Part shown: positions 1 through 58,022 of the stretch, piece after piece
Position numbering within the stretch: the stretch's first letter is position 1
Layout of the letters: the number at the start of each line of letters is the position of its first letter
Assembly: GCA_029266495.1 (NCBI GenBank)
Contig: JAQSWS010000004.1
Location: 1-64,000, forward strand
Reading direction: 5' to 3'
Length of the DNA: 64,000 nt
Source of the DNA: Rariglobus sp.
GTDB taxonomy: Bacteria; Verrucomicrobiota; Verrucomicrobiia; Opitutales; Opitutaceae
The notes under the pieces: model-generated
Told to the model about the DNA's origin: nothing
Seen by the model: the letters and a program-made list of their open reading frames with translations, nothing else
Databases searched by the model: none
Program-made: the position numbers and the translations under genes

Positions 1-299
1 TCCGCCTTGGGGGCTTCCTTGGCTGCGGCGGGTTTGCCGGCGGGGGCCTCGACGGTTTCGCCAGGCTTGCCCACCGCGCAGAGCGGTTCACCAAGGGCGA
101 CTTGCGAGCCGGCTTCGGCAAAAATTTTCAAAATGATTCCATCGAAGAAGCACTCGAGCTCCATGGTCGCCTTGTCGGTTTCGACCTCGGCGAGAGTGTC
201 GCCGGATTTGACGGCGTCGCCTTCTTTTTTGAGCCACTTGACCAGCGTGCCCACCGTCATGGTGTCGCTGAGTTTCGGCATTTCGATGATATTGGCCAT
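1..299 (-). CDS. pdhC: Pyruvate dehydrogenase E2 (dihydrolipoyl acetyltransferase), N-terminal part
   Basis: The gene runs off the left edge, so only about 99 N-terminal residues are visible. The protein starts MANIIEMPKLSDTMTVGTL and forms a lipoyl domain with the lipoylation motif ETDKATME, Lys43 being the predicted lipoyl-lysine. An Ala/Pro-rich flexible linker begins around residue 85. E2 carries the acetyl group made by E1 to coenzyme A in the cytoplasmic pyruvate dehydrogenase complex. It lies downstream of E1alpha and E1beta on the same strand, the usual pdhABC order. A 2-oxoglutarate dehydrogenase E2 would look similar in this segment, but the adjacent two-subunit E1 argues for pyruvate or a related 2-oxoacid. 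Confidence 0.9.
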   Translation of the reverse strand, partial: MANIIEMPKLSDTMTVGTLVKWLKKEGDAVKSGDTLAEVETDKATMELECFFDGIILKIFAEAGSQVALGEPLCAVGKPGETVEAPAGKPAAAKEAPKA

Positions 300-326
300 G
301 GGGAGGAAAATTTCGGAATCGGAGTT

Positions 327-405
327 TTAACGCAAAGGCGCAAAGACGCTAAGCTCGGAGTGCAATGGGCTTCGCGGCCTTTGCGACTTGGCGTCTTTGC
401 GTTAA
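327..405. repeat. Inverted pair of period-8 repeats between E1beta and E2
   Basis: The segment has perfect 11-bp terminal inverted repeats, TTAACGCAAAG at 327-337 and CTTTGCGTTAA at 395-405. The left arm reads as 8-bp units (GCAAAGGC, GCAAAGAC, GCTAAGCT). The right arm reads as related units in opposite orientation (GCCTTTGC, GACTTGGC, GTCTTTGC). It fills the gap between the E1beta stop and the E2 start, so it would be transcribed as a hairpin inside the pdh operon. Confidence 0.75.
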
Positions 406-410
406 ATAAG

Positions 411-1388
411 TCACGCGACGGCGGCGAGGGCGGCTTTGAGGACGCGCTGGGGGTTGGGGAGCTGTTCGACCTCGACGGGCGGGCTGTAGATCGCAGGTGC
501 GTCGATGGTGGCGAGGCGGTGGATGGGACCGTCGAGCTCATCGAACGCTTCGCGCTGGATCATGTAGGCGAGCTGGGATCCGACGCTGGCGAAGGGCTTC
601 TGCTCTTCGACGATGAGCACGCGATGGGTTTTCTTCACCGAGGCGAGCACGGTGTCGATGTCGAGGGGGCGAATGGTTCGCAGATCGACGACCTCCACGG
701 AAATATCGTGTTCTTTTTCGAGAATGCTCGCGGCGGCAAGGGAGTGGAGAACGGAACGGCCGTAGGTGACGATGGTGAGATCGGTGCCTTCGCGTTTGAT
801 GTCGGCAACGCCGAGGGGAATGACTTCCTCGGTGTCCGGAACCTCGCCTTTTTCGCCGTAAAGGAGCGTGTTCTCGAGGAAGAAGCACGGGTCGTTGTCG
901 CGGATGGCGGCCTTGAGGAGGCCCTTGGCGTCGCGGGCGGTGGAAGGAACGATGACCTTCACCCCGGGATGGTTGGCGAGGACGTTCTCAGGCGTATGGG
1001 AGTGGGTGGCGCCGACGTTGGTGCCGCCATTGGCCGGACCGCGGATGACGATCGGACAGTTGATGAGACCGCCGGACATATAGCGGACGTTGGCGGCGTT
1101 GTTGAGGATCTGGTCGAAGGCGACGGAATAAAAGGACCAGAACATGAGCTCCATCACGGGACGGATCCCGAGCATCGAGGCGCCGACGCCCATGCCGATG
1201 AAGCCGGCCTCGGAGATGGGGGTGTCGACGATGCGGTCGGGACCGAATTTTTCGAGGAGACCCTCGGAGACTTTGTAGGCACCGTGGAACTGGGCGACTT
1301 CTTCACCCATGAGGACGACGTTTTCGTCGCGGGTGAGTTCCTCGGCAAGGGCGGCGCGGATGGCTTCGCGGTAAGTAAGGACGGCCAT
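411..1388 (-). CDS. pdhB: Pyruvate dehydrogenase E1 component, beta subunit
   Basis: This 325-residue protein has the normal length for an E1beta subunit. It begins MAVLTYREAIRAALAEELTR and has the family segments LMGEEVAQFHGAYKVSEGLL, DTPISEAGFIGMGVGASMLG and VVDLRTIRPLDIDTV, covering the transketolase pyrimidine-binding and C-terminal domains. With E1alpha it decarboxylates pyruvate using thiamine diphosphate and reductively acetylates the E2 lipoyl group. The gene lies between E1alpha, 54 bp upstream, and E2, 111 bp downstream, on one strand, so one operon is likely. Acetoin dehydrogenase beta subunits are close relatives and cannot be fully excluded. Confidence 0.93.
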   Translation of the reverse strand: MAVLTYREAIRAALAEELTRDENVVLMGEEVAQFHGAYKVSEGLLEKFGPDRIVDTPISEAGFIGMGVGASMLGIRPVMELMFWSFYSVAFDQILNNAANVRYMSGGLINCPIVIRGPANGGTNVGATHSHTPENVLANHPGVKVIVPSTARDAKGLLKAAIRDNDPCFFLENTLLYGEKGEVPDTEEVIPLGVADIKREGTDLTIVTYGRSVLHSLAAASILEKEHDISVEVVDLRTIRPLDIDTVLASVKKTHRVLIVEEQKPFASVGSQLAYMIQREAFDELDGPIHRLATIDAPAIYSPPVEVEQLPNPQRVLKAALAAVA

Positions 1389-1392
1389 GGAA

Positions 1393-1427
1393 GAATGAAA
1401 AGTTGAGAGCTGAAAGTTGAGTGTTGA
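1393..1427. repeat. Five heptanucleotide tandem repeats between E1alpha and E1beta
   Basis: Five 7-bp units follow one another in exact register: GAATGAA, AAGTTGA, GAGCTGA, AAGTTGA, GTGTTGA. The array starts 4 bp upstream of the E1beta start codon and ends before the E1alpha stop. Two other heptamer arrays occur in this window, at 26886-26920 and 60578-60612. Confidence 0.7.
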
Positions 1428-1442
1428 GCGACCGGACCGGGA

Positions 1443-2546
1443 TTAATCGAAGAAGAGGCGGCCCTTGGAGGTGCGCTTCTCGGGATTATCAGTCTCCCAG
1501 TAGACGTCTTTCTGAATGTCGTCGGGGGTGGGGAAGGGGCTGGCTTCGGCGAAGTCGGCGGCGGGGTCGGCCTCGGCAAGGGCCTCGGCGTTGATCTGCT
1601 CGGCGAGGGCCTCGGTGAGGACGCCTTCGGCGAGGAGGGTATTTTGGAAGAGCTGGATCGGATCCTTCGTGCGCCGGTATTCCTCGATCTCCTCGCGGGT
1701 GCGGTAGGTCTTGTCTGGGTCGGCGACGGAGTGGCCGCGGTAGCGATAGGTGTCGATTTCGACGACCGCAGGCTGGTGCTTTTCGCGGGCGAGGGTGAGG
1801 AACTTGTCCATCGTGGCGCGGACCTCGTAAACGTCATGGCCGAAGCAGGTGCCCCAGTTCATGCCGTAAGCCTCGGCGCGTTGCGCGAGACCGGGACCGG
1901 CGGAGGAGCGTTCCTGGCTGGTGCCCATCGAATAGCCGTTGTTCTCAATGACGAAGATGACTGGCAGATTCCAGAGGGCGGCGAGATTGTAGGCCTCGTG
2001 AACGGCGCCTTGATTGACGGCACCATCGCCCATGAAGGCCATCGCGGCGCCCTTGAGTTTCTTATACTTGAGGGCGTAGGCGAGTCCGGTGCCAAGGGGG
2101 ATCTGGCCGCCGACGATGCCATGGCCGCCCCAGTAGTTAAGCGAGGGCGCGAAGTAATGCATCGAACCGCCCTTGCCCTTCGAGCAGCCGGTGATTTTGC
2201 CGTAGAGCTCAGCCATGAGGGCCTTTGTATCCATGCCGACGGCCATGGCGTGGCCGTGATCGCGGTAGGCGGTGATCACATGATCGTCCTTGCCCATCAG
2301 TGAGCAGCAGCCGACGGCAACGGCCTCCTGGCCGATGTAGAGATGAAGAAAGCCGCCGATCTTCTTGGACTGATAAGAACGCAAACTGCGCTCCTCAAAG
2401 CGGCGGATACGCACCATCTTTCGATGGAGTTCGATTTTCTCTTCCTTGGAGAGCTTTGCGTTGATCGGGGCCGTGGCGGACGGGCCGGGGCAGGCGACGT
2501 TGGCTGCGTCTTTCTGGTCGGCGGTAGGGACTGCTTTTTTGCTCAC
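1443..2546 (-). CDS. pdhA: Pyruvate dehydrogenase E1 component, alpha subunit
   Basis: The 367-residue protein carries the thiamine-diphosphate/Mg motif that starts at MGDGAVNQGAVHEAYNL and closes at VIENNGYS. It also has the phosphorylation-loop-like segment YRYRGHSVADPDKTYR typical of two-subunit 2-oxoacid E1 enzymes. The first 35 residues are a low-similarity extension before KIELHRKMVRIRRFEE. It forms the E1 heterotetramer with the downstream beta subunit and is the first gene of the visible pdh operon. The ATG at 2546 is used because no other start lies close upstream in frame. The 66-bp gap to the NUDIX gene holds no clear promoter that I can defend. Confidence 0.94.
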   Translation of the reverse strand: MSKKAVPTADQKDAANVACPGPSATAPINAKLSKEEKIELHRKMVRIRRFEERSLRSYQSKKIGGFLHLYIGQEAVAVGCCSLMGKDDHVITAYRDHGHAMAVGMDTKALMAELYGKITGCSKGKGGSMHYFAPSLNYWGGHGIVGGQIPLGTGLAYALKYKKLKGAAMAFMGDGAVNQGAVHEAYNLAALWNLPVIFVIENNGYSMGTSQERSSAGPGLAQRAEAYGMNWGTCFGHDVYEVRATMDKFLTLAREKHQPAVVEIDTYRYRGHSVADPDKTYRTREEIEEYRRTKDPIQLFQNTLLAEGVLTEALAEQINAEALAEADPAADFAEASPFPTPDDIQKDVYWETDNPEKRTSKGRLFFD

Positions 2547-2612
2547 AGGTAGAGTCGAGTTGAGTGTTAAAAGAAGAAGTCTTTGTGAGACCGTTAAGAA
2601 ATCAAGTGTTGT

Positions 2613-3140
2613 TTAAGCGGATACGGGGGCGAGTTGCGGGGCAGGCGTGATTTGTTCGACGATGACTTGCAATGGGGTCGAGGGGTGGCAATCGGCGCGG
2701 AGTGCAACGAAATGCGCGCGGTGCCGGTCATAGATCGGCCAGAGGGCGGTGCGGTCGGTCTCGGGGAGCGGGAGTTCGTCGATGTCCGCGCGTTGGAAAA
2801 AGCCGAATCGTCCCTCGGCCATCGCCGGCGGCAATGTCGCGATGGGGAGTTTACATTCAAAAAGAAAGAGCAGCCAGTGGGCTTCGCCCTCGTATGATTT
2901 TTCCGCGATCATTGCGAAGAGGTGCAGGTCCGCCGGGGTGATGAGATGGCCGGTCTCCTCGGCGGTCTCACGGGCGGCGCATTCGAAGGGTGATTCGCCG
3001 GTGGAGGTTTCGAGTTTGCCTCCGATCGGGCTCCATGCGCCCAGGTTGGGCGGCTTGGCCCGGAGGAGCAATAGATGCTCACCTTTGTCATTTTTAATGA
3101 ATACAAGGACGGCAATTTTGTAGGCGGGAGGGGAGGTCAT
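2613..3140 (-). CDS. NUDIX hydrolase
   Basis: The 175-residue cytoplasmic protein contains the NUDIX box core ESPFECAARETAEETGH, which fits the E-x7-RE-x2-EE-x-G part of the consensus. The loop before the first Glu is two residues longer than the standard GX5E spacing. NUDIX enzymes hydrolyse nucleoside diphosphates linked to another moiety; the exact substrate cannot be read here. The fold fills residues 8 to about 150, with an Ala/Pro-rich tail. It lies upstream of the pdh genes on the same strand and diverges from the pilus-like operon, with 102 bp between the start codons. Confidence 0.85.
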   Translation of the reverse strand: MTSPPAYKIAVLVFIKNDKGEHLLLLRAKPPNLGAWSPIGGKLETSTGESPFECAARETAEETGHLITPADLHLFAMIAEKSYEGEAHWLLFLFECKLPIATLPPAMAEGRFGFFQRADIDELPLPETDRTALWPIYDRHRAHFVALRADCHPSTPLQVIVEQITPAPQLAPVSA

Positions 3141-3242
3141 GGCCGCGGAGATATGTGTATTGAAAAAATATTATGCGTGTTGCCGAATTTGAGCGTGACG
3201 GAGGCGCCGCGATGCTCAATGTTTTGCCTCTCTTCCCCAAGC

Positions 3243-3872
3243 ATGAAACCCCTTACATGTGCCTTTCTTTGCATGGGTGTGATGGCGCTCGCGGCCATTT
3301 CGCCTCTAACCGCCCAGCCTGTGCCGCCTCCGCCCGTGGAGGTGACCAATGTTAAGTTCAATGCAGCCCGTGTTGATTCGGGGACCTGGTATGTCACCGA
3401 AATTGAGGTCCAGGGTCGTCCGGGCGCTGCGACGGACAACCGCAACTTCATCAATCGCGTCAAGGTCTCCCTTAACCTGGGCATCTTCAGCGTGAAGGCC
3501 CCGCAGGGTGCCAAGATTCCCGACACCTACTATCGCGCTTCTGCCGAAGCGGTGGCTGTGGACAGCGCTGGCGGCAAGGCGGTCTTCCGCTTTTATTTGC
3601 CCCCGGAGATTGTCAAACGTGACCAAATCACCGGCGATCAGAAGTTCTATTTGATCGAGCTGTTTGTGGACGGCAAGGCGCTGCCCCTGACCAAAAACCA
3701 TTTCACTGCCACTGCGCTGAGCAAACCGGAGTTCGTTGAAAGCTTCCGCTCAAAGGTATCAAGCGAGGCGGGCGTCAATGACGGCATCATGCTCCCGCAA
3801 TATCTCACTCCTTTTGCGTTCGCAGGCTCCCCTCCGCCACCTTCATTTATTCGCATCGAAAGCACGCGTTAA
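3243..3872 (+). CDS. Amuc_1102 family pilus-like protein
   Basis: This 209-residue exported protein has a signal peptide over residues 1-25 (hydrophobic CAFLCMGVMALAAI, cleavage near TAQP). A soluble domain follows, with the segments VEVTNVKFNA and WYVTEIEVQGRP. The ATG at 3243 was chosen because the signal peptide starts there, although the frame stays open further upstream. It is the first gene of a five-gene set in the order Amuc_1102, 1101, 1100, 1099, 1098 known from Akkermansia, where the products form a pilus-like envelope complex. The assignment rests mainly on position plus general character; sequence recognition for this small protein is moderate. A periplasmic accessory role is inferred. 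Confidence 0.72.
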   Translation: MKPLTCAFLCMGVMALAAISPLTAQPVPPPPVEVTNVKFNAARVDSGTWYVTEIEVQGRPGAATDNRNFINRVKVSLNLGIFSVKAPQGAKIPDTYYRASAEAVAVDSAGGKAVFRFYLPPEIVKRDQITGDQKFYLIELFVDGKALPLTKNHFTATALSKPEFVESFRSKVSSEAGVNDGIMLPQYLTPFAFAGSPPPPSFIRIESTR

Positions 3873-3936
3873 GCGTGATTGCTCAAATTCAGCTTGCTGA
3901 GTTTCGGCACTTCTGAAATCGACTCCCTCTTCCCCT

Positions 3937-5649
3937 ATGTCATCCCCCCGCGTCCTTGCTGTAGACAGCGGTGCTGGCCACGTTGCTTGCGGTGTATTTG
4001 CTTCCGCCAAGAACGGCCGGCTCGTGCTGGAACAGTTTGCCTTGGAATCCTTCAATCCTGACGCCTCCCTCGAGGCGCAATGGACTGAGTTGGTGGCCCA
4101 GTCATTGGCCGCGGCCGACAAACGTGCGGCCGCCTCCGGCTCGGCTGTCCTGTCGGTCCCCGGACACCTCACGCTTACCAAGTTCGTAAAGACGCCCGCG
4201 GTCGACAAGGCGAAGCGCGACAAGGTCATTCAGTTTGAGGCCCAGCAAAACATCCCCTATCCGCTGCCCGAAGTGGTGTGGGATTATCAGACGGTCAGTG
4301 ACGACAGCCTCGACCTCGAGGTCATGCTGGCGGCCGTGAAGCTGGACGTGGTCGAGGCCCTTTGCCACTCGGTGCGCGACGCCGGCGTGTCCCCCTCCGA
4401 GGTTCTGCCGGCGACGATCGCCCTGTATCGCTCCTTTAAATACAACTATCCCGACGCGGCCGGCACCTCGCTGGTCGTGAATATCGGCGCCCGTTCGACC
4501 AATCTCCTGTTCATCGATGGCGGGCGTTTTTTCATCCGCACGATCGCACTGGCCGGCAACAGCGTGACCCAGTCAATCGCCGACGAACTCAAGCAGGAGT
4601 TTTCGCACGCGGAGAGCCTCAAGCTTCAGGTTCTGGGCGGAACGAGCGATCTGCCCGAGTCTTCACCGGCCCGCACCACGGTCTTGAATGCGGCGCATTC
4701 ATTCATCGGGCGCCTGCACATGGAGATCACCCGTTCAACGGTGAACTACCGCCGCCAAAGCGGCGCGGAACAGCCGGCGGTCATTTACATCACTGGCGGC
4801 GGCTCCTTGGTGCCGGAGCTCATCGCCACACTCACGGACAAGCTCAAGACCCGGGTTGAGTCCTTCGATCCCCTGCGCAACGTCGAGGTGGCTCCCTCGG
4901 CCGCTGCGGCGCGCGACTATTCCGCGGTCCTCGCCGATCTGGTCGGTCTCGCGGTCGGAACCGGTGTCGGCGAAAAACGCTTCACGCTTCTGCCTCCGAC
5001 CATTGGCGAGGCCATCGCCTTCCGCAAGCAGCAGCCTTTTTATGTCGGTGCGGTCGCCGTGCTCGCCGTGGCTCTTGCGCTTCCCGCCGTTCATTTCCAC
5101 CAGCGTGCGTCCGTCGCGAACGAACAGGTCCGGTTGCTTGAAACCCGTATCCAACCGCTGCGTGCTCTGAAGGACGCCAACACAAACAACCTTCAGAAAA
5201 TCGAGACGCTTAAAAAGGAAATCGGCGCGATCCAGGGTCTGGTCGAATCCAAATCCAACTGGATTAATTTCTTCACGGATTTGCAGGAGCGCCTGATCAA
5301 AGTCGAAGACGTCTGGCTGGAAAAACTCCAGGTATTGCGTCCGGCGGCAGGAGAAGTTTCGCCTGCATCCGGCGGACCGATCTTCGGCCAGCCTGCGGCT
5401 ACGGGCGACACCGCACAGGCGCCGGCGCCTACCGTGCTTCGTCTTAATCTCAGCGGTCGGCTGTTGGACAGGGCCAATCCCACGTCGAAAGTCAGCCAGG
5501 AATCGTTGGATCGCGTGCGGTCGCTACTCGCGAGCTTTACCGATTCCCAGTTCATCTCCGCGAAGGAGAAGGAAACCTTTAATACCAACCAGCCGGGTAT
5601 CCTGAGCTTCGACTTCATCCTTGTCGTCGATCCCAAGAAACCGCTCTGA
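3937..5649 (+). CDS. pilM: Amuc_1101 family PilM-like protein with PilN-like C-terminal half
   Basis: Residues 1 to about 350 form an actin-like PilM ATPase. Visible motifs are phosphate-1 RVLAVDSGAGHVACGVF, phosphate-2 VVNIGARSTNLLFIDGG and the adenosine motif IYITGGGSLVPEL. A single membrane segment follows (YVGAVAVLAVALALPAV), then a coiled coil (VRLLETRIQPL, IETLKKEIGAIQGLV) and a PilN-like periplasmic domain containing WINFFTDLQERLIKVEDVWL. At 570 residues it is far longer than PilM alone (about 350), so it looks like a PilM-PilN fusion. It would link cytoplasmic ATP-dependent assembly to the periplasmic platform. It starts 64 bp after the Amuc_1102-like gene and 10 bp before the Amuc_1100-like gene, in one operon. 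Confidence 0.85.
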   Translation: MSSPRVLAVDSGAGHVACGVFASAKNGRLVLEQFALESFNPDASLEAQWTELVAQSLAAADKRAAASGSAVLSVPGHLTLTKFVKTPAVDKAKRDKVIQFEAQQNIPYPLPEVVWDYQTVSDDSLDLEVMLAAVKLDVVEALCHSVRDAGVSPSEVLPATIALYRSFKYNYPDAAGTSLVVNIGARSTNLLFIDGGRFFIRTIALAGNSVTQSIADELKQEFSHAESLKLQVLGGTSDLPESSPARTTVLNAAHSFIGRLHMEITRSTVNYRRQSGAEQPAVIYITGGGSLVPELIATLTDKLKTRVESFDPLRNVEVAPSAAAARDYSAVLADLVGLAVGTGVGEKRFTLLPPTIGEAIAFRKQQPFYVGAVAVLAVALALPAVHFHQRASVANEQVRLLETRIQPLRALKDANTNNLQKIETLKKEIGAIQGLVESKSNWINFFTDLQERLIKVEDVWLEKLQVLRPAAGEVSPASGGPIFGQPAATGDTAQAPAPTVLRLNLSGRLLDRANPTSKVSQESLDRVRSLLASFTDSQFISAKEKETFNTNQPGILSFDFILVVDPKKPL

Positions 5650-5659
5650 CCCCAGCCCC

Positions 5660-6658
5660 ATGGCCAGTTTCAAGTCCAATCCTGTCTATTACTCATTGCT
5701 CGGTATCCTTGGTCTGGTGGTCGCCGCCGCCGGATGGGGCATTTACAACCGCCATGCCGCCGCTGAAACCAGCGCGCGGCAGCTTGCGCAGAAGCGCAGC
5801 GAGTTGAACGCCCTCCAGGCGGTGAGCCCCGCGCCCACCCAGGAGAGCAAGGCCACTGTAGAGGCTGACCTGCGTCGAACGGAAGCCGCGCTGGCCACCA
5901 TGCACGAGGAGCTTCGCGGACGCGGTGCCGTTGCGGAAAATCTCCGCAAAACCCCCGTGCCCACCGAGCCGACCGACGTTTTCTTTAACTTGGAGACCTT
6001 TGTGGAAAAAATGCGCCAGAGGGCGCAGGCGTCGAACGTCAAGGTCAAGGCGGACGAGCGCTTTGGTTTTTACACCTACGCAACCTCGGGCCCTGAGCGT
6101 GACCTTATTCCGCAGGTCTTCCGTCAGCGTCAGATTTCCGAATACCTGATCAACGCGGTTATCGATGCGCGGCCCAGTGAACTGCTGTCTCTCCATCGAG
6201 AACGTCCTCTGACTAAAACTGAGCTCGACGCCATCGCCGCGGGCCAGCCATTGCCCGCTTCCTCGAGACCCGCCGCCCAAGGAGTCACCGATTTTTTTGA
6301 AATCGATCCACGAATCTCCGCCCGTGTGCCGGGTTTCGTAAGCGCCACGGCTTTCCGGCTGACGTTCGTCAGCGAGACCGGTTCGCTGCGTGCGCTGCTG
6401 AACAAGCTGGCGGAATTCGAACTCCCCCTCGTGGTGCGCAGTGTGGAGGTCGAGCCTGTGACCAAGTCCACGACCGCTGCGGCGGCTCCTCCAGCCAATA
6501 CACTCAGCGCAATCTTCGGCACGGCGGCGCCAGCGGCTCCCGTGGAGCCTGCCAAGCCTACTCCGATGGTTGAGAAGACCCTTTCCAAATTCACGGTCAC
6601 GGTCGAATTGATCGACTTGGTCGAAGCCCCCGCGACAGAAGCCACCCCGACTACCTGA
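5660..6658 (+). CDS. Amuc_1100 family pilus-like protein (PilO-like)
   Basis: The 332-residue protein has one N-terminal membrane segment (YYSLLGILGLVVAAAGWGIY), a coiled coil at about residues 35-95 and a periplasmic alpha/beta region. An Ala/Pro/Thr-rich linker near residues 280-308 and a final beta segment (LSKFTVTVELIDLVEAP) complete it. This layout matches the Akkermansia Amuc_1100 protein and is like PilO: membrane anchor, coiled coil, ferredoxin-like domain. It is expected in the inner-membrane platform with the PilM-PilN-like fusion. The ATG at 5660 places the hydrophobic segment close to the N-terminus. Family membership is supported by topology, size and position; receptor activity known for the Akkermansia protein should not be assumed here. 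Confidence 0.8.
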   Translation: MASFKSNPVYYSLLGILGLVVAAAGWGIYNRHAAAETSARQLAQKRSELNALQAVSPAPTQESKATVEADLRRTEAALATMHEELRGRGAVAENLRKTPVPTEPTDVFFNLETFVEKMRQRAQASNVKVKADERFGFYTYATSGPERDLIPQVFRQRQISEYLINAVIDARPSELLSLHRERPLTKTELDAIAAGQPLPASSRPAAQGVTDFFEIDPRISARVPGFVSATAFRLTFVSETGSLRALLNKLAEFELPLVVRSVEVEPVTKSTTAAAAPPANTLSAIFGTAAPAAPVEPAKPTPMVEKTLSKFTVTVELIDLVEAPATEATPTT

Positions 6659-6659
6659 C

Positions 6660-7583
6660 ATGGCCGCCAAATCCCAAGATAAAGTTTTCTTCGGCGTCGC
6701 GTTTTTCCTGTTGCTGGCCTCCGCCGGCTGGATGGCGCTGCAAAACTCGAAGCTCTCCTCGTTGCGCACCTCCTCCGAGGTGACCATCACGCCCTCCGCT
6801 TATGTGCCCGCCGGCATTGACGCTCCGAGCGTCAGCACGAAGACATGGCCGTCGCCCGTTGCCCAATCAAGCGGCCCGATGTGGGTGTATGACGTGTTTA
6901 CGCCACCGGAGATTTATTACCTCGAATCGACCAAGCAATTTAGCGTTACGCTGCCGCCCCCTCCGCCGCCCCCGCCGCCACCTCCTGAATCCCGCTTCGG
7001 CATTAATTTAGTTGGCATCAAGCAGGACTCCTTCCGTCTGCAGCTCGTCGGCTACACCGGCGGACCTGGCGATTATCGGGGTATGTTTGAAAACGCCCTG
7101 TCTGGCGACACCATCATCGGCCGCGCTGGAAAAACCATTCCCGACCTGGGCCTCACGATCAAGAGCTTTGACGTGAAGCGTAACAAGATTGAGAGCCCCG
7201 ACAGCATGGTGACCTATGATACCGAGGCGACCGCCATTGTGGTTGACGACAAGACTGGAGAGGAAATTTCGCTCACCAACAAACATCGGCGCATCAAGGG
7301 CGAGCCGTTCGCAATTCTACGGGCTGAGGGGGCCTCTGCCACGATCGAACACAAGGCGGGTGCCAAGTTTACGATCGGGGACGCCACTTATACCCTGCTG
7401 ACGATCACCGCCGAGCCGCCCTCAGTGGAAATCCGCAAGGAAGCCCCTGATTTGAAAGAACCCGAAACGAAGACCTTGACGCCATTCGTTCCTGTCGCCC
7501 CAGTGCCCGCTTCGCCTGCGCCGACCGATTCGGCTCCTCCCGCGCAGCCGGCTCCGGCGACTCCTTTCCCATTCGGCACCTAA
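6660..7583 (+). CDS. Amuc_1099 family pilus-like system protein (PilP-like)
   Basis: This 307-residue protein has one N-terminal membrane segment (VFFGVAFFLLLASAGWMAL) and a proline run at about residues 99-108. The central beta-rich domain contains FGINLVGIKQDSFRLQLVGY, which fits a PilP or Amuc_1099 role of joining the inner-membrane platform to the secretin. The C-terminus is Pro/Ala-rich. Its ATG follows the Amuc_1100-like stop codon after a single base, so translational coupling is likely. The secretin gene begins 52 bp downstream. Assignment comes from position, topology and the proline-rich architecture. Confidence 0.78.
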   Translation: MAAKSQDKVFFGVAFFLLLASAGWMALQNSKLSSLRTSSEVTITPSAYVPAGIDAPSVSTKTWPSPVAQSSGPMWVYDVFTPPEIYYLESTKQFSVTLPPPPPPPPPPPESRFGINLVGIKQDSFRLQLVGYTGGPGDYRGMFENALSGDTIIGRAGKTIPDLGLTIKSFDVKRNKIESPDSMVTYDTEATAIVVDDKTGEEISLTNKHRRIKGEPFAILRAEGASATIEHKAGAKFTIGDATYTLLTITAEPPSVEIRKEAPDLKEPETKTLTPFVPVAPVPASPAPTDSAPPAQPAPATPFPFGT

Positions 7584-7635
7584 TCATTTCCTGTATCCCT
7601 TAGTCTTATACCCAGTCCAGCAGAGCATCTCCTAA

Positions 7636-10276
7636 ATGAAAAAGCTAAAGCTCCCCAAATCGCTCCTTGTCACGTTGGCCACTCCCGCGCTTCTGGCGCT
7701 GGTCGTGCCCGCCGGGCACGCCCTCGCACAGGGCCAGACCGAGACGAAAATCCGTCTCATGGCTGATGCCCTTCGGGCGCGTGATAGTGGCGACCTTGAA
7801 ACCGCCAAGAAAAACCTGGAGGAGCTTCTCGCACTCGCCCCGAATGACGCGACCGTTCAGCGGCTGCTTTCCGGTGTGAATGCATCCATCGCCGCCCGTG
7901 CTTCGGGCGTCGCCGTAGTCGAGGCGGCACCCGCTCCCGCGTCTTCGGAGCCGGTCGAAGTGAGCATGCCTTCCGCTTCCAAGCCCGCCCCGAAGCCCGC
8001 TCCGGTGCAATCGCCCGAAGAGGCTGCGCTTTCACTGGCGGACGATCTCGCCAAGCAGGAGAACCTGCGTATCAAAGGGCTGATTGCCGACGCCCGTGCC
8101 AAGCGCGGCGAAGCTCGTGATCTCGCCAAGGACGGCCGTTTCGACGAAGCCACCGTTGTGCTCGAGGGTGCGATCAACTCGCTTCCCGCCAATCCGGCCA
8201 CTGCCGACATGATCGCCGATCTCCAGGCGGAGAAAAACGGTTTGCTGCTCGAGAAAGCCCAGTATGCGCACAAGAAGGGTGACACTGTCGCAGCCCGTGC
8301 GGCGCTCGAGGCCTATGCCTTGGCCTCCAACGACACCAAGCGGGTGGCGAAAGTCTCCCACGCCATCGATAAAACCGAACTCGATCCGCCTTTGCAGCCG
8401 ATCGAAAAAGTAAACCCCAAGTTTATCAGCGATCAAAAGGAGATCGCCAAGCTCGAGGCCAAGGGTCGCAGCCAATATCTGGCCGGCGACATTGAGGGTG
8501 CCCAGGAAACGTTCCGTTTGATCGAGTCGATCGATACGGGCAATCCCTTGGCCAAATCCATTCTTGCCCGCATTGCCACCGAGAAATCTGCGGTGGGTGA
8601 GCTCAACCGTTACAAGACCCGGGCTCAAATGCTCGAAGAGGTTGGTAATTCATGGCAGCGTCCGGGCGTTTATCTAGATCGGCCCGTTGAAACTGGTGGT
8701 GGTGGAGTTGTAGTCACGCCGCTCGCAAAGAAGTTAAACGACATTAAAATTCCCAACGTGAATTTCAGTGGCGTGGAACTCAGCCGCGTCATCAACACGC
8801 TTTCGGCCATCTCCGCCGATTATGACAAGAGCGAAGGCGCCAAGGGCGTGAACATCGTGTTGATCGACTCGAGCAACAAGAATCCCACTGTAAACATCAC
8901 CCTGCGTGATCTGTCCCTCCGCCGTATCCTCGACTTGATCACGGATGCAACGGGCTACCAATATGAGATCCAGCCTGACACCATCGTGGTGCGTCCGGGT
9001 GGAGAAGGCGGCGGTATTATCTTGGAAAATGCGTTTTTCCCGGTCACTCGCGCCACCGTCATCCGTATGACCGGCATCGGCGCAGCCGCGGCTACGACCA
9101 CTACTGCAGCAGATCCGTTTGCCGCTCCGAGCGCCGCGCCTAGTGGTAGCGGTGGCAGTGCGGGTGGCGAATCCGCGGCGCTGCAGTCGTTCCTCGAGCT
9201 ACAACGACGTCCGCCAGGTCGAGATCGAGGCCAAGTTCATGGATGTGCAGGAAGGCGTGTTGGAAGAACTCGGGGTAAACTGGAGTGCAAGCAGCGATCA
9301 TGGCACCTACCTTTCCGCGAATCGTTCGCTGGCATCTGTTTTCGGTGGCTCGGCCACCGGCGCAGCTGGCTCGATCTTGACCACGGATGGTTTGGGCGGA
9401 ACAACCGATCGTAGCATCCCCAACAGCCCCGCGGTGATTCCCGGCGCTCCGAACATCGGACTCACCACCACCAGCGGCAGCTTCACTAATCAAGATAACG
9501 AACTGGCTGTGATCACCGGTGTCATTGGCGAATTCGATGTCACCGCCACGATCCGTGCGTTGTCGCAGAAAACGGGGACTGACCTGCTGAGCTCCCCCAA
9601 GGTGACCGTGCTTTCCGGTAATCCGGCGAACATCGTCGTCGCGCAGGAACTCCGCTATCCGCAAAGCTACGGTGAGACGCAGAGCACCGTGAGCTCGGGT
9701 AATTCCGGCGGTTCGGCCATCAGTATCACCGCGGGCACGCCCCAAGAGTTCACCGTCCGCAATGTGGGTGTCGAACTCAAGGTCACGCCCACGGTTGAGG
9801 AGGATGATTACAGCATCAGCCTGGATCTGAATCCCAAGGTCACCGAGTTCGACGGATTCGTCGAATACGGCGGTCAGAGCGTCGCGTTGACCAGCTCGGG
9901 TCTGACCAGCACCACTGTCGCTTTGCCCTCCGGCTTCTACCAGCCGATCTTCTCCACGCGTGAAGTGACGACCAAGGTCACCGTGTGGGATGGCGCGACG
10001 TTGGTTCTCGGCGGATTGACTCGTGAAGAGGTCAAGAAGACCAACGACAGCATCCCGGTTTTGGGTGATATTCCGTTCCTTGGCCGGGCCTTCCGCTCCA
10101 AGGGCGAGACGTCCAGCAAGCGCAACTTGCTGATCTTCGTCACGGCCAACCTCGTCAGCCCCGGTGGTTCTCCGAAGAAGCAGCAGCTGAAGAGCGTGGC
10201 TCCTGCCTCGATGTTCCAGAACCCGACCATCGTGACCCCGGGCAGTGCCGAGTCGCGTGTTCGCGCCGGCAAATAA
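7636..10276 (+). pseudogene. Amuc_1098 family type IV pilus secretin, broken by a frameshift/deletion
   Basis: Two frames together encode one secretin. Frame 1 (7636-9414) gives a signal peptide, TPR-like helices to about residue 330 and an N-domain (KLNDIKIPNVNFSGVELSRV to IVRP). It stays homologous up to ALQSFLE and then runs into unrelated residues until its stop. Frame 2 (in-frame ATG at 9239, stop at 10276) resumes near 9191 with SSYNDVRQVEIEAKF. It carries the secretin beta domain, including LLSSPKVTVLSGNPANIVV, IPVLGDIPFLGRAFRS and LLIFVTANLVSP. The junction is at about 9190-9200. Members of this family normally have a further beta-alpha segment between these points, so DNA appears lost as well as the frame. 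Neither fragment alone should make a working secretin. It closes the Amuc_1102-1098 operon. Confidence 0.85.
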
Positions 10277-10302
10277 GCCATTCCTCCGGGCTTCTACTAT
10301 CG

Positions 10303-10334
10303 ACGCCGTCACCTTCGGGTGGCGGCGTTTTTTT
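10303..10334 (+). terminator. Rho-independent terminator of the pilus-like operon
   Basis: An 11-bp stem with one G-T pair (ACGCCGTCACC and GGTGGCGGCGT) closes a TTCG tetraloop and is followed by a run of T residues at 10328-10335. It begins 26 bp after the secretin stop and separates the operon from the exonuclease gene. Confidence 0.9.
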
Positions 10335-10381
10335 GGGCTTTATCTTTGCAATGAGCGAAGGCGCGTTCCTTGGTTTTCATC

Positions 10382-11269
10382 ATGGCTAAATGGCTTCTGA
10401 TCGACGGCTTTAATCTCGCCTACCGCTGCTTTCACGCGGTGCCCGAGCTGACGCGTGCAGACGGGTTTCCGACCAATGCGTTGCATGGCTGGGTGAAGTC
10501 GTTGTGGAAACTGGCCGATCAGGAAAAGCCGGACGGCACGCTTGTGTTTTTTGATTTGGGCGGTTCGCAGGACCGGCTGCTTTTGCTGCCCGAATACAAG
10601 GCCCAGCGTGAGGAGATGCCGGAGGCATTGTGCAAACAGATCGAGCCGATCAAGGCGCTCACGCGCGCGATGGGATTTGTAGGCATCGAAACAGATGGCG
10701 TCGAAAGTGATGACCTGCTGGCTTCACAGGCCGTTGCTTTGGCGGCGCAGGGCCACGAGGTGTTGATCGTCAGTTCCGACAAAGACTTCGCCCAGATCGT
10801 AAACAACCGGATCAAGATTCTTCTGCCGCCGCCCTCGGCCAACCCGAAGCTCGGCTGGCGTTTTCGTGACGAGGCGGGCGTGTTGGAAAAGTTTGGTGTG
10901 CCGCCAGCGCAGATCGCGGACTACCTGGCTCTGGTGGGTGACACTTCGGACAACATCCCCGGCATTTCCGGTGTGGGGCCGAAGACCGCGGTAAAATGGC
11001 TGCAGCAATATCACAACATCGAGGGTGTGATCGCCCATGCGGCGGAGCTCACGCCCGAGCGTTTCCGGGAGGCCGTGCGCGATCGCGCGGAGGATCTGCG
11101 GCGCAACTTGAAACTGACCACGTTGAATCTGTCCTTGCCGACCGTGGCCGCGGAGGCGCCCCGTATCATGGCGGAGGAGCTGTTTGCTCTGCTGGAGGGC
11201 TGGGAAATGAAATCGAGCCTCAATGAGGCGAGGGGACGCTACGGCCGGCAGCCGGAGTTTTTGTTCTAG
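10382..11269 (+). CDS. 5'-3' exonuclease / flap endonuclease (PolI N-domain type)
   Basis: The 295-residue protein is a stand-alone 5'-3' exonuclease domain. The N-terminus WLLIDGFNLAYRCFHAVPEL carries the first metal-binding Asp. The acidic clusters DGVESDDLLA and VSSDKDF and the helix-hairpin-helix region VGDTSDNIPGISGVGPKTAVKWL are all present. Such proteins remove RNA primers and 5' flaps, like the N-terminal domain of DNA polymerase I or ExoIX/Xni. The ATG at 10382 is preferred over a TTG 12 bases upstream because MAKWLLIDGFN is the normal beginning. The 5' side is a terminator, so the gene probably has its own promoter. Confidence 0.9.
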   Translation: MAKWLLIDGFNLAYRCFHAVPELTRADGFPTNALHGWVKSLWKLADQEKPDGTLVFFDLGGSQDRLLLLPEYKAQREEMPEALCKQIEPIKALTRAMGFVGIETDGVESDDLLASQAVALAAQGHEVLIVSSDKDFAQIVNNRIKILLPPPSANPKLGWRFRDEAGVLEKFGVPPAQIADYLALVGDTSDNIPGISGVGPKTAVKWLQQYHNIEGVIAHAAELTPERFREAVRDRAEDLRRNLKLTTLNLSLPTVAAEAPRIMAEELFALLEGWEMKSSLNEARGRYGRQPEFLF

Positions 11270-34581: not shown

Positions 34582-34641
34582 GATGGGAAGTGATCGAGGT
34601 AAGTCGGAGACCGGACGCAGCGGAGCGCGCAGGGAAAGAAA

Positions 34642-34670
34642 AATTAATTCCCCTGACGGCGCTCGACGCA
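34642..34670 (-). promoter_or_regulatory. Possible sigma-70 promoter of the MacA/B operon
   Basis: On the minus strand TTGCGT (34670-34665) and ATTAAT (34647-34642) are 17 bp apart, about 61 bases upstream of the MacA-like start. The -10 is an imperfect match; the AT-rich patch is unusual in this GC-rich region. Confidence 0.35.
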
Positions 34671-34745
34671 ACGCCTGAATCCGCGGAGACGCGGGAAAGC
34701 GCGCGATGTTACGAGCCGCGCGTTAATATCGCCGGCAAGGACGGA

Positions 34746-35240
34746 TCACGCCTGTGCCGCCGGGCGAGGGAACGCGGCGGAGAGGGCGGCGGCAACGTTG
34801 GCCGGCACGAAATGCGAGATGTCGCCGCCGTAGCGGGCGACTTGTTTCACCAGGGAGGAACTGGTGTAACTGAATTGCTCGTGCGGCATCACAAAGAGCG
34901 TTTCGATCCGTGGCTGCAGGTGGCGGTTCATCAGCGCCATGTTGAACTCGAACTCGAAGTCGGAGAGGGCGCGCAGTCCGCGGATGATGGCGTCGGCTTT
35001 CTGGGCGACGGCAAACTCGACCAGCAGGCCGTCAAAAATGGTGGCGGTGACGTGCGGGTATTTGCCGAGGTTGGCCTGGACGAGGGCGAGGCGCTGTTCG
35101 GGCGAAAAGACGGGACCTTTGCCGGGATTGTGGGCGATGGCGACGGTGATGCGGTCAAAAAGCTTGGCCGCGCGGTCGAGGACATCGAGGTGACCGTTGG
35201 TAAGGGGATCGAACGTGCCGGGATAAATGCAGTGACGCAT
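34746..35240 (-). CDS. coaD: Pantetheine-phosphate adenylyltransferase
   Basis: The 164-residue enzyme makes dephospho-CoA from 4'-phosphopantetheine and ATP. It has the nucleotidyltransferase motif in IYPGTFDPLTNGHLDVLDRA (TxGH) and the C-terminal ATP-binding segment SYTSSSLVKQVARYGGDISH. Its length is normal. The ATG at 35240 is chosen; another ATG 12 bases upstream is possible. It lies upstream of the MacA operon on the same strand and diverges from pgsA. Confidence 0.95.
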   Translation of the reverse strand: MRHCIYPGTFDPLTNGHLDVLDRAAKLFDRITVAIAHNPGKGPVFSPEQRLALVQANLGKYPHVTATIFDGLLVEFAVAQKADAIIRGLRALSDFEFEFNMALMNRHLQPRIETLFVMPHEQFSYTSSSLVKQVARYGGDISHFVPANVAAALSAAFPRPAAQA

Positions 35241-35354
35241 GCGCTTGACCATCATCGATGGGCGCCGGACCGGGGCGAGAACCAAATCGTGGCGTTTACG
35301 GGGTTGCCTTTGATGAGGGGCGTCACTGTCTTCGGCGCAACCTCGTTTGGAACC

Positions 35355-35942
35355 ATGAACCTGCCCAATATCATCACCCTGTCGCGCATTCCGCTGATGT
35401 TCGTGGTGGTCTGGTTGATGTATCAGCAGTGGACGGGGGCGGCGACGCTGGCGTTCTGGTTGTTCATCGCCGCGGCGATCGGCGACTGGCTGGACGGCTA
35501 CATCGCACGCAAGCGCAACCTCATTTCGATTTTCGGCAAGTTCATGGATGCGCTGACGGACAAGATCTTCGTCGTGGGCATCATGATTGCGTTTGTGGAC
35601 AAGGACATCGTGCCGATCTATTTCGTGCTGATCGTGCTGTGTCGTGAGTTTTTGATCTCGGGCATGCGCATGATGGCGGCGGCCAAGGGCGTGGTGGTGG
35701 CGGCGGAGCGCGGCGGGAAGACCAAGACGCTTACGCAGCTGATCGCAGTCGGGTTTTTGTTGTTCGTGCCGATGCTGCAAGGCGACATCGCGCAGTGGGT
35801 CGCGTTTGATTTTTCGCCTTACAGCCAAGTGATCCATCACGTGGGTTTGTGGCTGTTCATCCTTGGGGTTTATTTCACGGTGCGCTCGGGCTGGGACTAT
35901 TTGTCGAAGTATCGCGGGGTGGTTTTTGAAGACGTGGGATGA
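35355..35942 (+). CDS. pgsA: CDP-diacylglycerol--glycerol-3-phosphate 3-phosphatidyltransferase
   Basis: The 195-residue integral membrane enzyme makes phosphatidylglycerol phosphate. The CDP-alcohol phosphotransferase motif is complete: GDWLDGYIARKR followed by GKFMDALTDK, giving DxxDGxxAR...GxxxDxxxD. It starts MNLPNIITLSRIPLMFVVVW and has about five membrane segments. Its stop codon overlaps the start of pgpA, the enzyme of the next step, by four bases. An upstream in-frame ATG (35313) is less likely because the N-terminus at 35355 is the normal one. Confidence 0.95.
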   Translation: MNLPNIITLSRIPLMFVVVWLMYQQWTGAATLAFWLFIAAAIGDWLDGYIARKRNLISIFGKFMDALTDKIFVVGIMIAFVDKDIVPIYFVLIVLCREFLISGMRMMAAAKGVVVAAERGGKTKTLTQLIAVGFLLFVPMLQGDIAQWVAFDFSPYSQVIHHVGLWLFILGVYFTVRSGWDYLSKYRGVVFEDVG

Positions 35943-37014: not shown

Positions 37015-37439
37015 CGTTTGAGAAGAAACCGCACGGCGGCGAAATAACCCTCCAGCCCAAGCCCGCTGATGACGGCGATCGCCACGGGCGCGGTGAGCGA
37101 CGTGTGGCGGAATTCCTCGCGCTTGTAGATGTTGGAAATATGGACCTCGACCGCCGGCAGGTGGGCGCCCGCGAGGGCGTCGCGGAGGGCGACGCTGGTG
37201 TGGGTGAGGGCGGCGCCGTTGATGACGATGCCGTCGAATTTTGCGTCGGCCAGAGCGGCGATTTTGTCGATGAGCGCACCCTCGTGGTTGGACTGGAAAA
37301 AATCGAGCGAGGTCGTCGCACCAAACTCCGCGCGCAACGACGCTTCCAGATCGGCGAGGGTGGTATGCCCGTAGATCTCGGGTTCGCGTTTGCCGAGGCG
37401 GTCGAGATTGGGGCCGTTGAGGATGGCGATTTTCTTCAT
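37011..37439 (-). CDS. aroQ: 3-dehydroquinate dehydratase, type II
   Basis: The 142-residue enzyme converts 3-dehydroquinate to 3-dehydroshikimate in the shikimate pathway. It has the start [20 protein letters not shown] with the catalytic Tyr in EIYG, the [14 protein letters not shown] segment and the His in [19 protein letters not shown]. The size fits the dodecameric type II family. It is cotranscribed with the NusG paralogue through a four-base overlap. Confidence 0.95.
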
Positions 37440-37485
37440 GGTGCGGGCGCTGAGGTGGCGAACTGTTGCGAACTTGCGACGGAAA

Positions 37486-38238
37486 TCAAAGCGGATTGTC
37501 GGTCGCGATGAATTCCCAGGGCAGGTTGAACTTCGCGGCGAGTTCGGCGGCGAGGGCTTTCACGCCATGGACCTCGGTCGCGTAGTGTCCGCAAAGGTAG
37601 AGATTGAGCCGCTGTTCCTGGGCGGTGTTGAACCATTCCTCGCGCAGTTCGCCGGTGACGAGCGTATCGACGCCCGCGGGCAGAAGCTCGGAGACGGCGC
37701 TGTTGCCGCTGCCGCTGCAGAACGCGACCGCCAGGGGGGCGTCGGAGCCGTATTCGATGGCGATGACGCGACCGTAGAGTTTTTCCAGTTGCGCACGCAG
37801 GGCCGAACGGGGGCCGGAGCGCGGGGCGATGCGGCCGATGGCCTCGCCATCCCTCACGAGAAACGGGCGGTCGGGGGTGAGGCCGAGCTGGCGGGCAAGG
37901 AGGGCGTTGTTGCCGAGTTCGGGATGACCGTCGAGGGGAAGGTGGTTGCTGTAGAGAGCGCAGTCGCCGCGGATGAGAGTCGACACGCGTTCGTAGACAG
38001 GGCCGGTGAGGGGGCGGGGCATGTCCCAATACATGCCATGGTGGACGATCAAAAAATCCACGCCGGCCGCCACCGCCTGTTTAAACGGGAGCAGGCCTGC
38101 GTCGACGGCGGCGCCGATTTTGGTGATGCGACCGCTATTGGCGAGTTGGAGGCCGTTGAAGGCTCCGGGCGCGTCCTTGTAGGCGGAGCGCCGGGTGCGT
38201 TCGTCGCAGTAGATGACGAGGTCTTGCAATGTGGCCAT
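37486..38238 (-). CDS. Nif3-like dinuclear metal centre protein
   Basis: The 250-residue protein has the Nif3/DUF34 features: [20 protein letters not shown] near the N-terminus, the metal-binding segment [14 protein letters not shown] and [16 protein letters not shown]. The C-terminal half has [20 protein letters not shown] and [21 protein letters not shown]. Members form hexamers with a two-metal site; the substrate is unknown, and the old GTP cyclohydrolase label is poorly supported. It lies 46 bp upstream of aroQ on the same strand. Confidence 0.9.
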
Positions 38239-38303
38239 GCGGGTTGATGAAGACGCGGATTCGGAGTGGCAATTTTCAAAACGCGGGCTACCGATTGGCG
38301 CAC

Positions 38304-55118: not shown

Positions 55119-57422
55119 ATGAATTCCTCTTTGAGCGAAGCCGATCTGTTGCGCACCCGGCTGGAGACATCCCAGCGCATTGCGACGATCGGTGATTGGG
55201 AAAGCGATGCGCGGCACAGTGAACTGCAGTGGTCAAACGAAGTGTATGACATCCTGGGGGTTCCCCGGGGCGGCTCTGCCTTGACCGCGGAAAGTTTCTT
55301 CACCCGGGTTCATCCGGACGACCTCGAGGGGGTTCACCGTCGCAAGCAAACGTTGTCGCCGGCGTTGCGGCGGATCTCTTTTGACCATCGTATCATTCGT
55401 CCGGATGGCGAGGTCAGGTGTGTGCAGCAACGGTGTGAACTCATCGTGGATGCGTCCGGGCAGGCTTCGCGGGTGATCGGCACGATTCAGGACATCACCG
55501 AACTCAAGGCGGCGGAGGAGGAGCTGCGCGGGAAGACCGCGATTCTTGAGGCACAGCTGGACACGTCCATCGACGGTATCCTGATTGTGGATGCAGACGG
55601 ACGGAGCATCCTGCAGAACGACCGGTTTTCCGAGATATGGAAAGTTCCACCGCATCTGGTTGAGTTGGGCAACGACCGGGAGCAGGCGCAGCACGTGGTG
55701 ACCCGGGTGAAGAACCCCGAGGATTTTTGGGTCAAGATCACTCATCTGCATTCCCATCCCAAGGAAGTCAGCCGTGATGAAATCGAGATGAGCGATGGCG
55801 TGATTTTGGATCGTTATTCGGCTCCGGTGACCGGAAAGAACGGCCGCTATTACGGACGCATCTGGACCTTTCGGGACATCACTGCGCAGAAAACGTCCCA
55901 GGCTTCATTGGTTGCGAGCCAGGAACGGTTCAAACTCGTCGCCAAGACGATCGGTGACGTGATCTGGGATTGGAACCTGCGCACCGATGTTATCTGGCGG
56001 AGTGATGGTTTCGAGAACACCTTCGGGCTGGCCGCGTCCGAGGCGGATGAACTCCAAACCACCTGGGAGCGCTTGATTCATGAGGATGATCGCGAGCGCG
56101 TCGAAAGCAGCCTGAAAAAGGCAATCGAGGGCACCGGTCAGACGTGGACCGATGAATACCGGGTGTTGCGACGCGACGGCAGCCACGCCGTGGTGGAGGA
56201 TCGTGCGCAGATCGTGCGCGATGCCGCTGGCAAGGCCGTGCGCATGGTAGGCGGCGTCCGTGATCTCACCGAGCGGAAAAATTTCGAGGCCCGCCTTCTG
56301 CGCTCGCAGCGCATGGAGAGCATCGGGGTGCTGGCCGGCGGCATCGCGCACGATTTAAACAACGTTCTCGCGCCGATTCTCATGTCGGTCGACATCCTCA
56401 AGCAGGAGTCGGGGAGCAAGGAGCAGGCGCATCGGATGCTGGAGATTGTCCGGGTGAGCGCACAACGCGGCGCGGATCTTGTGCGGCAGGTCCTGACCTT
56501 TTCACGCGGGGCCGACGGCGAGTATATGGCCGTCAGCTTCCGGCATCTTTTTCACGAATTGCAAAGCATCGTGATGGAGACGTTCCCGCGTAACATTGAG
56601 ATCGAGTTCAACGCGGCGTCCAACCTCTGGCCGGTGATGGGCGACGCCTCGCAGTTGCACCAGGTGTTGCTGAACCTGGCCGTCAACGCCCGTGATGCCA
56701 TGCCGTTCGGCGGCACGCTGCATTTTGCCGCGAGCAACCAGGTTCTCGACGCGCAGTCTCCCGGCGCTCCTGCCGGGGCGCCGCCCGGTTCCTATGTTGA
56801 GTTGATCGTGACGGACACGGGCACGGGAATGACCCCCGAAGTGCGGGAGCGGATCTTCGAGGCCTTTTTCACTACGAAGGAGGAGGGGAAAGGGACCGGC
56901 CTCGGGCTGGCTTCGGTTCACGCGATCGTGAAGCACTATCATGGTTTCGTGAACGTCACGAGCGAGGTCGGGGCGGGGACGACGTTTAGGATCCATTTCC
57001 CGGTGGATTCGTCGCTCAGTTTCGACTCCCGCCCGCCGATGGTAATCGACAATCCGCGCGGCCGGGGGGAAACGGTGCTGTTGATCGACGATGAACGTTC
57101 GATTCGCGACATCGCACAGCAGACGTTGGAAGGATTTGGCTATCACGTGCTGGTCGCCGGCGATGGCATCGAGGGTATCGCGCTCTACATGCGCAACGCG
57201 AAGGCGATCAAGGTGGTCATCACCGATATGATGATGCCCAACTGCGACGGCGCCTCCACGATTCGCGCGTTGCTCGGCATCAATCCCGAGGCACGCATCA
57301 TCGCCGCCAGCGGGGAGGGGATTGATCGCGAGACAATCAAAGGTGTCAGCGATTTCCTCGGGAAGCCCTACAGCGCGGAAACAATGTTGAAACTGATCCG
57401 CGAAGTGTTGGACCGGCCGTGA
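55119..57422 (+). CDS. PAS-domain hybrid sensor histidine kinase with C-terminal receiver
   Basis: The 767-residue protein has three PAS-like domains: about 20-130 (SNEVYDILGVPRGGSALTAE), 150-260 (DTSIDGILIVDADGRSILQN) and 270-390 (VWRSDGFENTFGLAASEADE-like third fold). The HisKA H-box GGIAHDLNNVLAPILM has His411. The HATPase domain carries NLAVNARDAMPFGG, TDTGTGMTPEVRERIFEAFF and GKGTGLGLASVHAIVKHYHG. A receiver follows with LLIDDERSIRDIAQ, Asp703 in VITDMMMPNCDG and Lys in DFLGKPYSAE. It has no membrane segment. It is a single gene and its output target is not visible. Confidence 0.93.
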   Translation: MNSSLSEADLLRTRLETSQRIATIGDWESDARHSELQWSNEVYDILGVPRGGSALTAESFFTRVHPDDLEGVHRRKQTLSPALRRISFDHRIIRPDGEVRCVQQRCELIVDASGQASRVIGTIQDITELKAAEEELRGKTAILEAQLDTSIDGILIVDADGRSILQNDRFSEIWKVPPHLVELGNDREQAQHVVTRVKNPEDFWVKITHLHSHPKEVSRDEIEMSDGVILDRYSAPVTGKNGRYYGRIWTFRDITAQKTSQASLVASQERFKLVAKTIGDVIWDWNLRTDVIWRSDGFENTFGLAASEADELQTTWERLIHEDDRERVESSLKKAIEGTGQTWTDEYRVLRRDGSHAVVEDRAQIVRDAAGKAVRMVGGVRDLTERKNFEARLLRSQRMESIGVLAGGIAHDLNNVLAPILMSVDILKQESGSKEQAHRMLEIVRVSAQRGADLVRQVLTFSRGADGEYMAVSFRHLFHELQSIVMETFPRNIEIEFNAASNLWPVMGDASQLHQVLLNLAVNARDAMPFGGTLHFAASNQVLDAQSPGAPAGAPPGSYVELIVTDTGTGMTPEVRERIFEAFFTTKEEGKGTGLGLASVHAIVKHYHGFVNVTSEVGAGTTFRIHFPVDSSLSFDSRPPMVIDNPRGRGETVLLIDDERSIRDIAQQTLEGFGYHVLVAGDGIEGIALYMRNAKAIKVVITDMMMPNCDGASTIRALLGINPEARIIAASGEGIDRETIKGVSDFLGKPYSAETMLKLIREVLDRP

Positions 57423-57456
57423 TGGGGGCCACGCGAGGACCCCATGCCTTGCCCCC

Positions 57457-57522
57457 CAGGCTTCAGACTTCCGCCTGAGGCCTGTGGAGCGGCAGCGTTT
57501 GTGTGCCGCACGAAATTTTTTT
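57457..57522 (+). terminator. Two hairpins after the PAS kinase gene, the second terminator-like
   Basis: CAGGCTTCAG pairs with CTGAGGCCTG (57457-57484, one G-T pair). A second hairpin, GCGGCA with TGCCGC at 57489-57509, is followed by a T run at 57515-57522. Together they are a plausible end for the kinase transcript. Confidence 0.5.
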
Positions 57523-57632
57523 ATGCGGTCTGCGTTGTGAAGACCAAGCTGGCGGGGACGAAACGGGGCACTCCAAGTGGAGCAACCATTCGCTCCAGCC
57601 GGGCCGGGGTTCACGGGCTTGCGAAACGAGTG

Positions 57633-58022
57633 TCAGCCGCCCGTCTCTCCATTGATGCGCACACTGTGCACGCGCATGCATTGGCGACAGCCGACCGAGG
57701 CGCGTTTCATTGGAATCGGAAGTTTTAAAAGCATGCAAATAGCGCCGAACGCACTGAGGACGCGGATGTGGATATCCGGCGAGCCGCAGTGGGGGCAGGC
57801 GATCATTCCGACCGTGTCAGGCGGTAAGTCCAGCAGGGCGCGCGCTTCTCTCCAGTCTTCGTCGGCCACATCGATTCGCACCCCGCCCACGGCGGTAGAC
57901 GCGAGCCAGTTCAAGGTGACCATGTGTTCATCCCGGAGCACGGTTTTTACCCCCGCGCTTTCGAGCCGTGCCACCGCCAGATATGCCTCCATGGGCGTCG
58001 AAAAAGCGGCGAGGGTTTTCAT
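57633..58022 (-). CDS. DUF2007-type protein with zinc-ribbon-like C-terminus
   Basis: The 129-residue protein begins MKTLAAFSTPMEAYLAVARL, the DUF2007 (signal-transducing) fold that also appears with PII-like neighbours. Its second half has paired cysteines, MIACPHCGSPDIHI and VGCRQCMRVHSV, that look like a zinc ribbon, with a hydrophobic stretch between them. The function is unknown. Its start overlaps the stop of the small membrane protein gene by four bases. Confidence 0.82.
   Translation of the reverse strand: MKTLAAFSTPMEAYLAVARLESAGVKTVLRDEHMVTLNWLASTAVGGVRIDVADEDWREARALLDLPPDTVGMIACPHCGSPDIHIRVLSAFGAICMLLKLPIPMKRASVGCRQCMRVHSVRINGETGG

Follow-up and report, generated by a model that had tools for sequence, protein, structure and literature searches.

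The gene at positions 7636-10276 (forward strand) of the 64,000-nucleotide stretch of DNA from Rariglobus sp. analysed here, referred to as the window, is a disrupted copy of a known gene, a secretin gene related to those of Amuc_1098 and PilQ, which is written in two overlapping frames. At the junction of the two (9197..9200, forward strand), 116 bases are absent when compared with the closest relative found, as shown both by blastn and by a comparison of 80 loci. The indirect evidence on whether this is an artefact or a true loss of the pore leans slightly towards a wrong assembly, and we give about an even chance to the reading that the deletion is an artefact or a minority variant that most likely does not represent the organism at large. 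The genome to which the window belongs comprises 4,892,833 bases on 172 contigs and is 99.75% complete.

The first frame starts at 7636 and stays open to 9414. Its 5' part, which is in frame with the start (7636..9198, forward strand), codes for TPR-like repeats, an STN domain, a linker rich in Gly, Ala and Pro and the first half of the last N-domain. STN (PF07660) reaches 34.1 bits with a cut-off of 28.4, and the TPR matches are weak and lie below their cut-offs. Past the junction an out-of-frame tail (9199..9414, forward strand) runs to a stop in the list of open frames, and the gene as written gives a product of 592 residues from which the barrel is absent. The second frame is listed from a TTG at 9119 and is open to 10276; it contains the 3' part of the gene (9200..10276, forward strand) from the start of the secretin domain to the stop codon, with no further lesion. 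The secretin domain (PF00263) is recognised there with 130.1 bits at a cut-off of 27.5 and with positions 1-168 of the 169 of the profile, and N-domains and barrel are not found together in one open frame of the window gene. NF042912, the profile for Amuc_1098, stands first among the NCBIfam matches listed for either half (129.4 and 243.8 bits) and is matched at its positions 22-403 in the first frame and 458-803 in the second, while positions 404-457 are absent from both, which bears out the original prediction of a secretin in two frames with an N-domain segment missing from either. Downstream of the gene a terminator-like hairpin, a consensus match only, is located at 10302..10329 (forward strand); a consensus scan of 9100-10400 gave three such sites, with 1.3 expected from shuffled sequences.

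The secretin gene is the last of an operon (3243-10276) that is related to the Amuc_1098-1102 cluster of Akkermansia, and all genes named here are encoded on the forward strand. The first gene (3243..3872, start set by inspection) is an open frame for which no Pfam or NCBIfam family was found over 3192-3869. It is followed by a PilM-like gene (3937..5649), a relative of Amuc_1101 with a PilM_2 (PF11104) match of 95.9 bits at a cut-off of 27 and an NF045709 match of 361.8 bits (8e-108), which stays under the cut-off of 650 of that family. The third gene (5660..6658, start again by inspection) is a relative of Amuc_1100, in which NF038287 scores 77.6 bits (1.1e-21), under its cut-off of 180. The fourth (6660..7583) is an open frame without family matches, which takes the place of Amuc_1099 by position only. 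The earlier remark that these four upstream genes look intact is supported: all of them are open frames, and three gave dN/dS values against the closest relative of about 0.08 (PilM-like gene), 0.09 (Amuc_1100 relative, computed on 5642-6658) and 0.15 (fourth gene).

The secretin gene thus lies beside PilM-like and Amuc_1100-like genes, as is the case for the Amuc_1098 family. As a whole protein it does not reach the NF042912 cut-off of 750, its two pieces scoring 127.6 and 240.9 bits in the genome search; because the intact relative P0001 also stays below this cut-off with 444.8 bits, we refer to copies of the window type as relatives and do not call them members of NF042912. In the available part of its description, Amuc_1098 has 907 residues with a C-terminal secretin domain and N-terminal TPR-like repeats (PMC4960237). 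The window gene resembles this protein, the PilQ of Akkermansia muciniphila, in both of these features and in the PilM-like and Amuc_1100-like genes of the operon, but differs from the family in that it lacks 116 bases and is out of frame. There is also a likeness to the structures of GspD and PilQ, which the intact P0001 matches by sequence (5wq9 with 1.3e-21 and 6w6m with 2.3e-18) and a model of a fragment of a relative matches by Foldseek (5zdh with 2.3e-12, at low TM-scores of 0.34 and 0.30). The fragment model is, however, of low overall confidence, and the N-domain differs from these structures by carrying a long Gly/Ala/Pro linker. Judged by sequence, the family of the window gene would be a putative outer-membrane channel for type IV pili.

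At the junction, the in-frame GAG codon occupies 9196-9198, base 9199 is left over and the TAC of the second frame begins at 9200, so that the frame changes at 9197-9199. A break had been correctly recognised by the original prediction, although its position at 9190/9191 was off by a few bases. The best match outside the window's own genome (G000) among 56 genomes searched, G000 included, was G008 with 91% identity. In blastn, window positions 34-9197 align to contig C351 of G008, ending 39 bases short of the contig end, and the window from 9198 onward aligns to contig C158 from its base 100. Because 22 bases at the end of C351 recur identically at the start of C158, the number of bases absent from the window is 39 + 99 - 22 = 116. 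This alignment agrees with the earlier proposal of a deletion that removes N-domain residues and whose length is no multiple of three. With 116 bases absent, an error of a single base was rejected as the cause. Intact relatives, when inspected, leave the exact breakpoint free to shift by about 2 bases.

The missing stretch is predicted to encode, in the N-domain ahead of the secretin barrel, two strands and the greater part of the last helix. This assignment derives from a model of an intact relative's fragment, built from 34 sequences, which has a mean pLDDT of 57.5, with values of 82-88 in those blocks of ten residues that span 51 to 100. The order of elements in the model is strand-helix, linker, helix-strand-strand-helix, which we take to be the usual order of a secretin N-domain, and the missing residues are approximately 62-100. 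An intein or excisable element was rejected as an explanation because the missing part is conserved coding sequence and not an insert. The Gly/Ala/Pro linker, which splits the N-domain in the model, lies about 300 to 110 bases before 9200 and is the most G+C-rich and most foldable part that was scanned in 77 relatives.

For comparison, the best 80 of 132 confirmed secretin relatives were used as named loci; the titles of 77 of these start with MAG, and most are titled Opitutaceae, Opitutae, Opitutia or Verrucomicrobia. In 78 of the 80, the missing stretch is whole and in frame with the secretin domain, and in the other two (L042, which is the locus of G008, and L092) the contig begins inside the stretch. 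Divergence as the sole cause of the gap was rejected on these grounds. Neither the window's junction nor its two-piece arrangement occurs in any of these best 80 of 132 loci. The case that had been named beforehand as evidence against a deletion, a close relative that reads through an identical junction in a single open frame, was looked for and found in none of the 80. A 78-residue probe laid over the stretch matched 116 of 150 sampled family genomes at E <= 1e-6, a count that includes G000 itself and matches to paralogues, and 34 genomes gave no match. The exact 29-base junction sequence had no match in viral contigs, and among the papers listed in literature searches none had a title or opening of the abstract that dealt with a broken secretin from Opitutaceae. 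In one further genome (G013:C52, 7868-9091), two more secretin N-domain-like copies were seen about 1 kb apart, one of them in a frame with an internal TAG.

Compared with G008, the 5' part of the gene shows 80% amino-acid identity and a dN/dS of about 0.11, and the 3' part 91% identity and a dN/dS of about 0.06 (both by NG86); all dN/dS values given here are rough, as dS is above 1. No further stop or frame change was seen in the secretin gene. The signs of a pseudogene, relaxed selection and further lesions, are hence not found, though a very young pseudogene would look alike. As both halves appear constrained and a second lesion is lacking, the lesion should be either very recent or not real.

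Two clues lean towards a technical or minority-variant origin. One is that the secretin gene of G008 is split over two contigs which overlap by 22 bases inside the very same 116-base stretch; at the contig density of that genome the chance of a break inside the stretch is about 0.008, a coincidence noticed after the fact. The other is that exact 31-mer sharing between species peaks from the right breakpoint onwards, with a mean of 0.69 other loci per position at offsets 0-29 and 0.35 in the second-highest bin, as counted over 2.5 kb after 32 near-identical ordered pairs had been dropped. Of the window's 31-mers in this gene, 35 are found in any of the 79 other loci, and 16 of these start at 9198-9213, with the other 19 forming four clusters. 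Sequence stretches that are common to several species tangle metagenome graphs. What was promoted here might be a chimeric molecule, a slipped one or a minority variant, at a place where coverage of the intact path was poor or the path was tangled; the window's genome would then be an assembly from mixed DNA in which the same local difficulty acted as in G008. A plain repeat-induced misjoin does not explain the junction, because only about 2 bases of homology are possible there, and some molecule probably carried it.

An excess of contig breaks at this place across the family is weak or borderline by four counts. Of 24 contig starts in the 5 kb upstream, three lie no more than 130 bases from where the match begins (chance 0.025), which speaks for an artefact or minority variant. 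Against it, random placement brought three starts to within 37 bases of each other at some point of the 5 kb in 25% of trials. A contig break strictly inside the stretch was found in two of 115 matched genomes (G008 and G023), with 0.65 expected (P ~0.14), or in three of 115 (P ~0.03) when G104 is included, where the contig begins about 13 bases ahead of the stretch. A hairpin in the missing stretch as the cause of its drop-out was rejected, since no unusual folding was found in the 77 of 80 loci scanned, where the mean folding energy is unremarkable, and the window's junction region folds no better than shuffled sequences (z 0.74). In the available part of a study of pseudogenes in RefSeq assemblies (PMC11017572), many apparent pseudogenes are assembly errors that are linked to assembler, platform and coverage. 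The window gene is like the spurious pseudogenes described there in that it is conserved, carries one lesion and shows no decay elsewhere, but that part of the study counts frameshifts and internal stops, whereas the lesion of the window is a loss of 116 bases.

The main alternative, which in our estimate falls somewhat short of an even chance, is a real and very recent loss, in which the 116-base deletion became the majority form in the strain or population. It could have arisen through slippage or through end-joining at a microhomology of about 2 bases and would leave at most the 592-residue remnant without barrel, and an envelope complex without its outer-membrane channel. Loss of pili could pay where pili serve as phage receptors or are costly. 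A shade less probable in our view is the more specific proposal that a wild Opitutaceae-related population has just lost its pilus secretin by such a majority-allele deletion, for example under phage pressure, with the rest of the operon intact. A junction without long overlap fits a real loss as well, as it makes it probable that DNA molecules carrying it existed, and so does the finding that no second copy of the stretch was detected in the window's genome with a protein or a DNA probe. The compared part of the window showed no other clear break, and most pseudogenes are defined by a single mutation according to the available part of PMC11017572. Against a real loss stand the break of the closest relative's assembly in the same stretch, the wide conservation of this stretch in the sampled family genomes, and the finding that neither half, nor any of three genes of the operon, shows signs of relaxed selection, although a very young lesion would leave none.

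We consider it very improbable that the gene works in two pieces or in shortened form, with the second frame being translated from an internal start or by frameshift and its product either joining the N-terminal piece or acting alone. Each frame is indeed open over a long distance, and candidate starts such as the TTG at 9119 exist for the second, but both pieces lack two strands of the last N-domain and the greater part of its final helix, a consensus scan limited to the sigma-70 type gave no promoter-like site in 9100-10400, and no other locus among the best 80 shares the arrangement. Equally improbable is a reversible or recurrent switch, by which the stretch would be lost and regained by recombination, leaving part of the population without a pilus channel. 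Mixed forms might cause a break such as that in the G008 assembly; this break, however, lies 17-39 bases inside the stretch and not at the window's junction, where only the 2 bases of homology mentioned would be available. In addition, the intact relative L043 has no direct repeat of 9 or more bases flanking the stretch, and no donor copy was found, the nearest related place being a domain of 58% identity in a different protein, on contig C57.

The protein probe gave three matches in the window's genome, namely this domain on C57, the window itself to the right of the junction and a weak one of 33% identity on C110, and the DNA probe returned the same part of the window along with a further 15 short hits, each of them at an E-value over 0.3. 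Four other secretin-domain matches are present on C110, C142 and C92 (two), together with 12 matches to the type II/IV secretion ATPase family, so that pilus or secretion machinery is otherwise present. The C57 protein (L135:5952-8000) and its counterpart in G008 (L040:793-3927, on C58) combine STN/N-domains of secretin-like type with a von Willebrand factor A module and YfbK_C, with the STN score of the former slightly below the cut-off; the gene in G008 is preceded by a frame that looks sigma-factor-like by eye, and the one in G000 is followed by a frame of 1965 residues. On C92, two proteins about 6 kb apart (L004 and L005, at approximately 47.2 and 41.3 kb) have C-terminal secretin-like regions, which are preceded by a BlaR1-like region in one and a thioredoxin-like region in the other, all as matches under the curated cut-offs.

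When the window was compared with 26 loci of G008, with 49,478 bases matched and 57381-64000 outside the comparison, no other clear mid-gene break was seen on the window's side, so that the assembly is not generally poor in the compared part. In this comparison, 28 frames of G008 each match at least two window frames that lie on one strand; many of these G008 frames represent the same place in overlapping loci, and most, having a piece of moderate identity, were read as shadow frames or neighbouring genes. Such matches also occur at 38213-38299, near a gene start, and at 37391-37442, where they may reflect a start-site difference, a shadow frame or a real shift. At 34590-35942 the window's frame is open, and the counterpart in G008 appears to be split over two frames at about 35270-35350.

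Disrupted genes of this kind are common, and an artefact as well as a true loss would be ordinary and would change no wider picture. If the preferred reading of an artefact is true, the organism itself does not have the deletion. In annotation, neither the lack nor the presence of a pilus secretin should for the time being be ascribed to this genome. If the deletion is real, on the other hand, it would represent a snapshot of the loss of a pilus channel before the rest of the operon decays.
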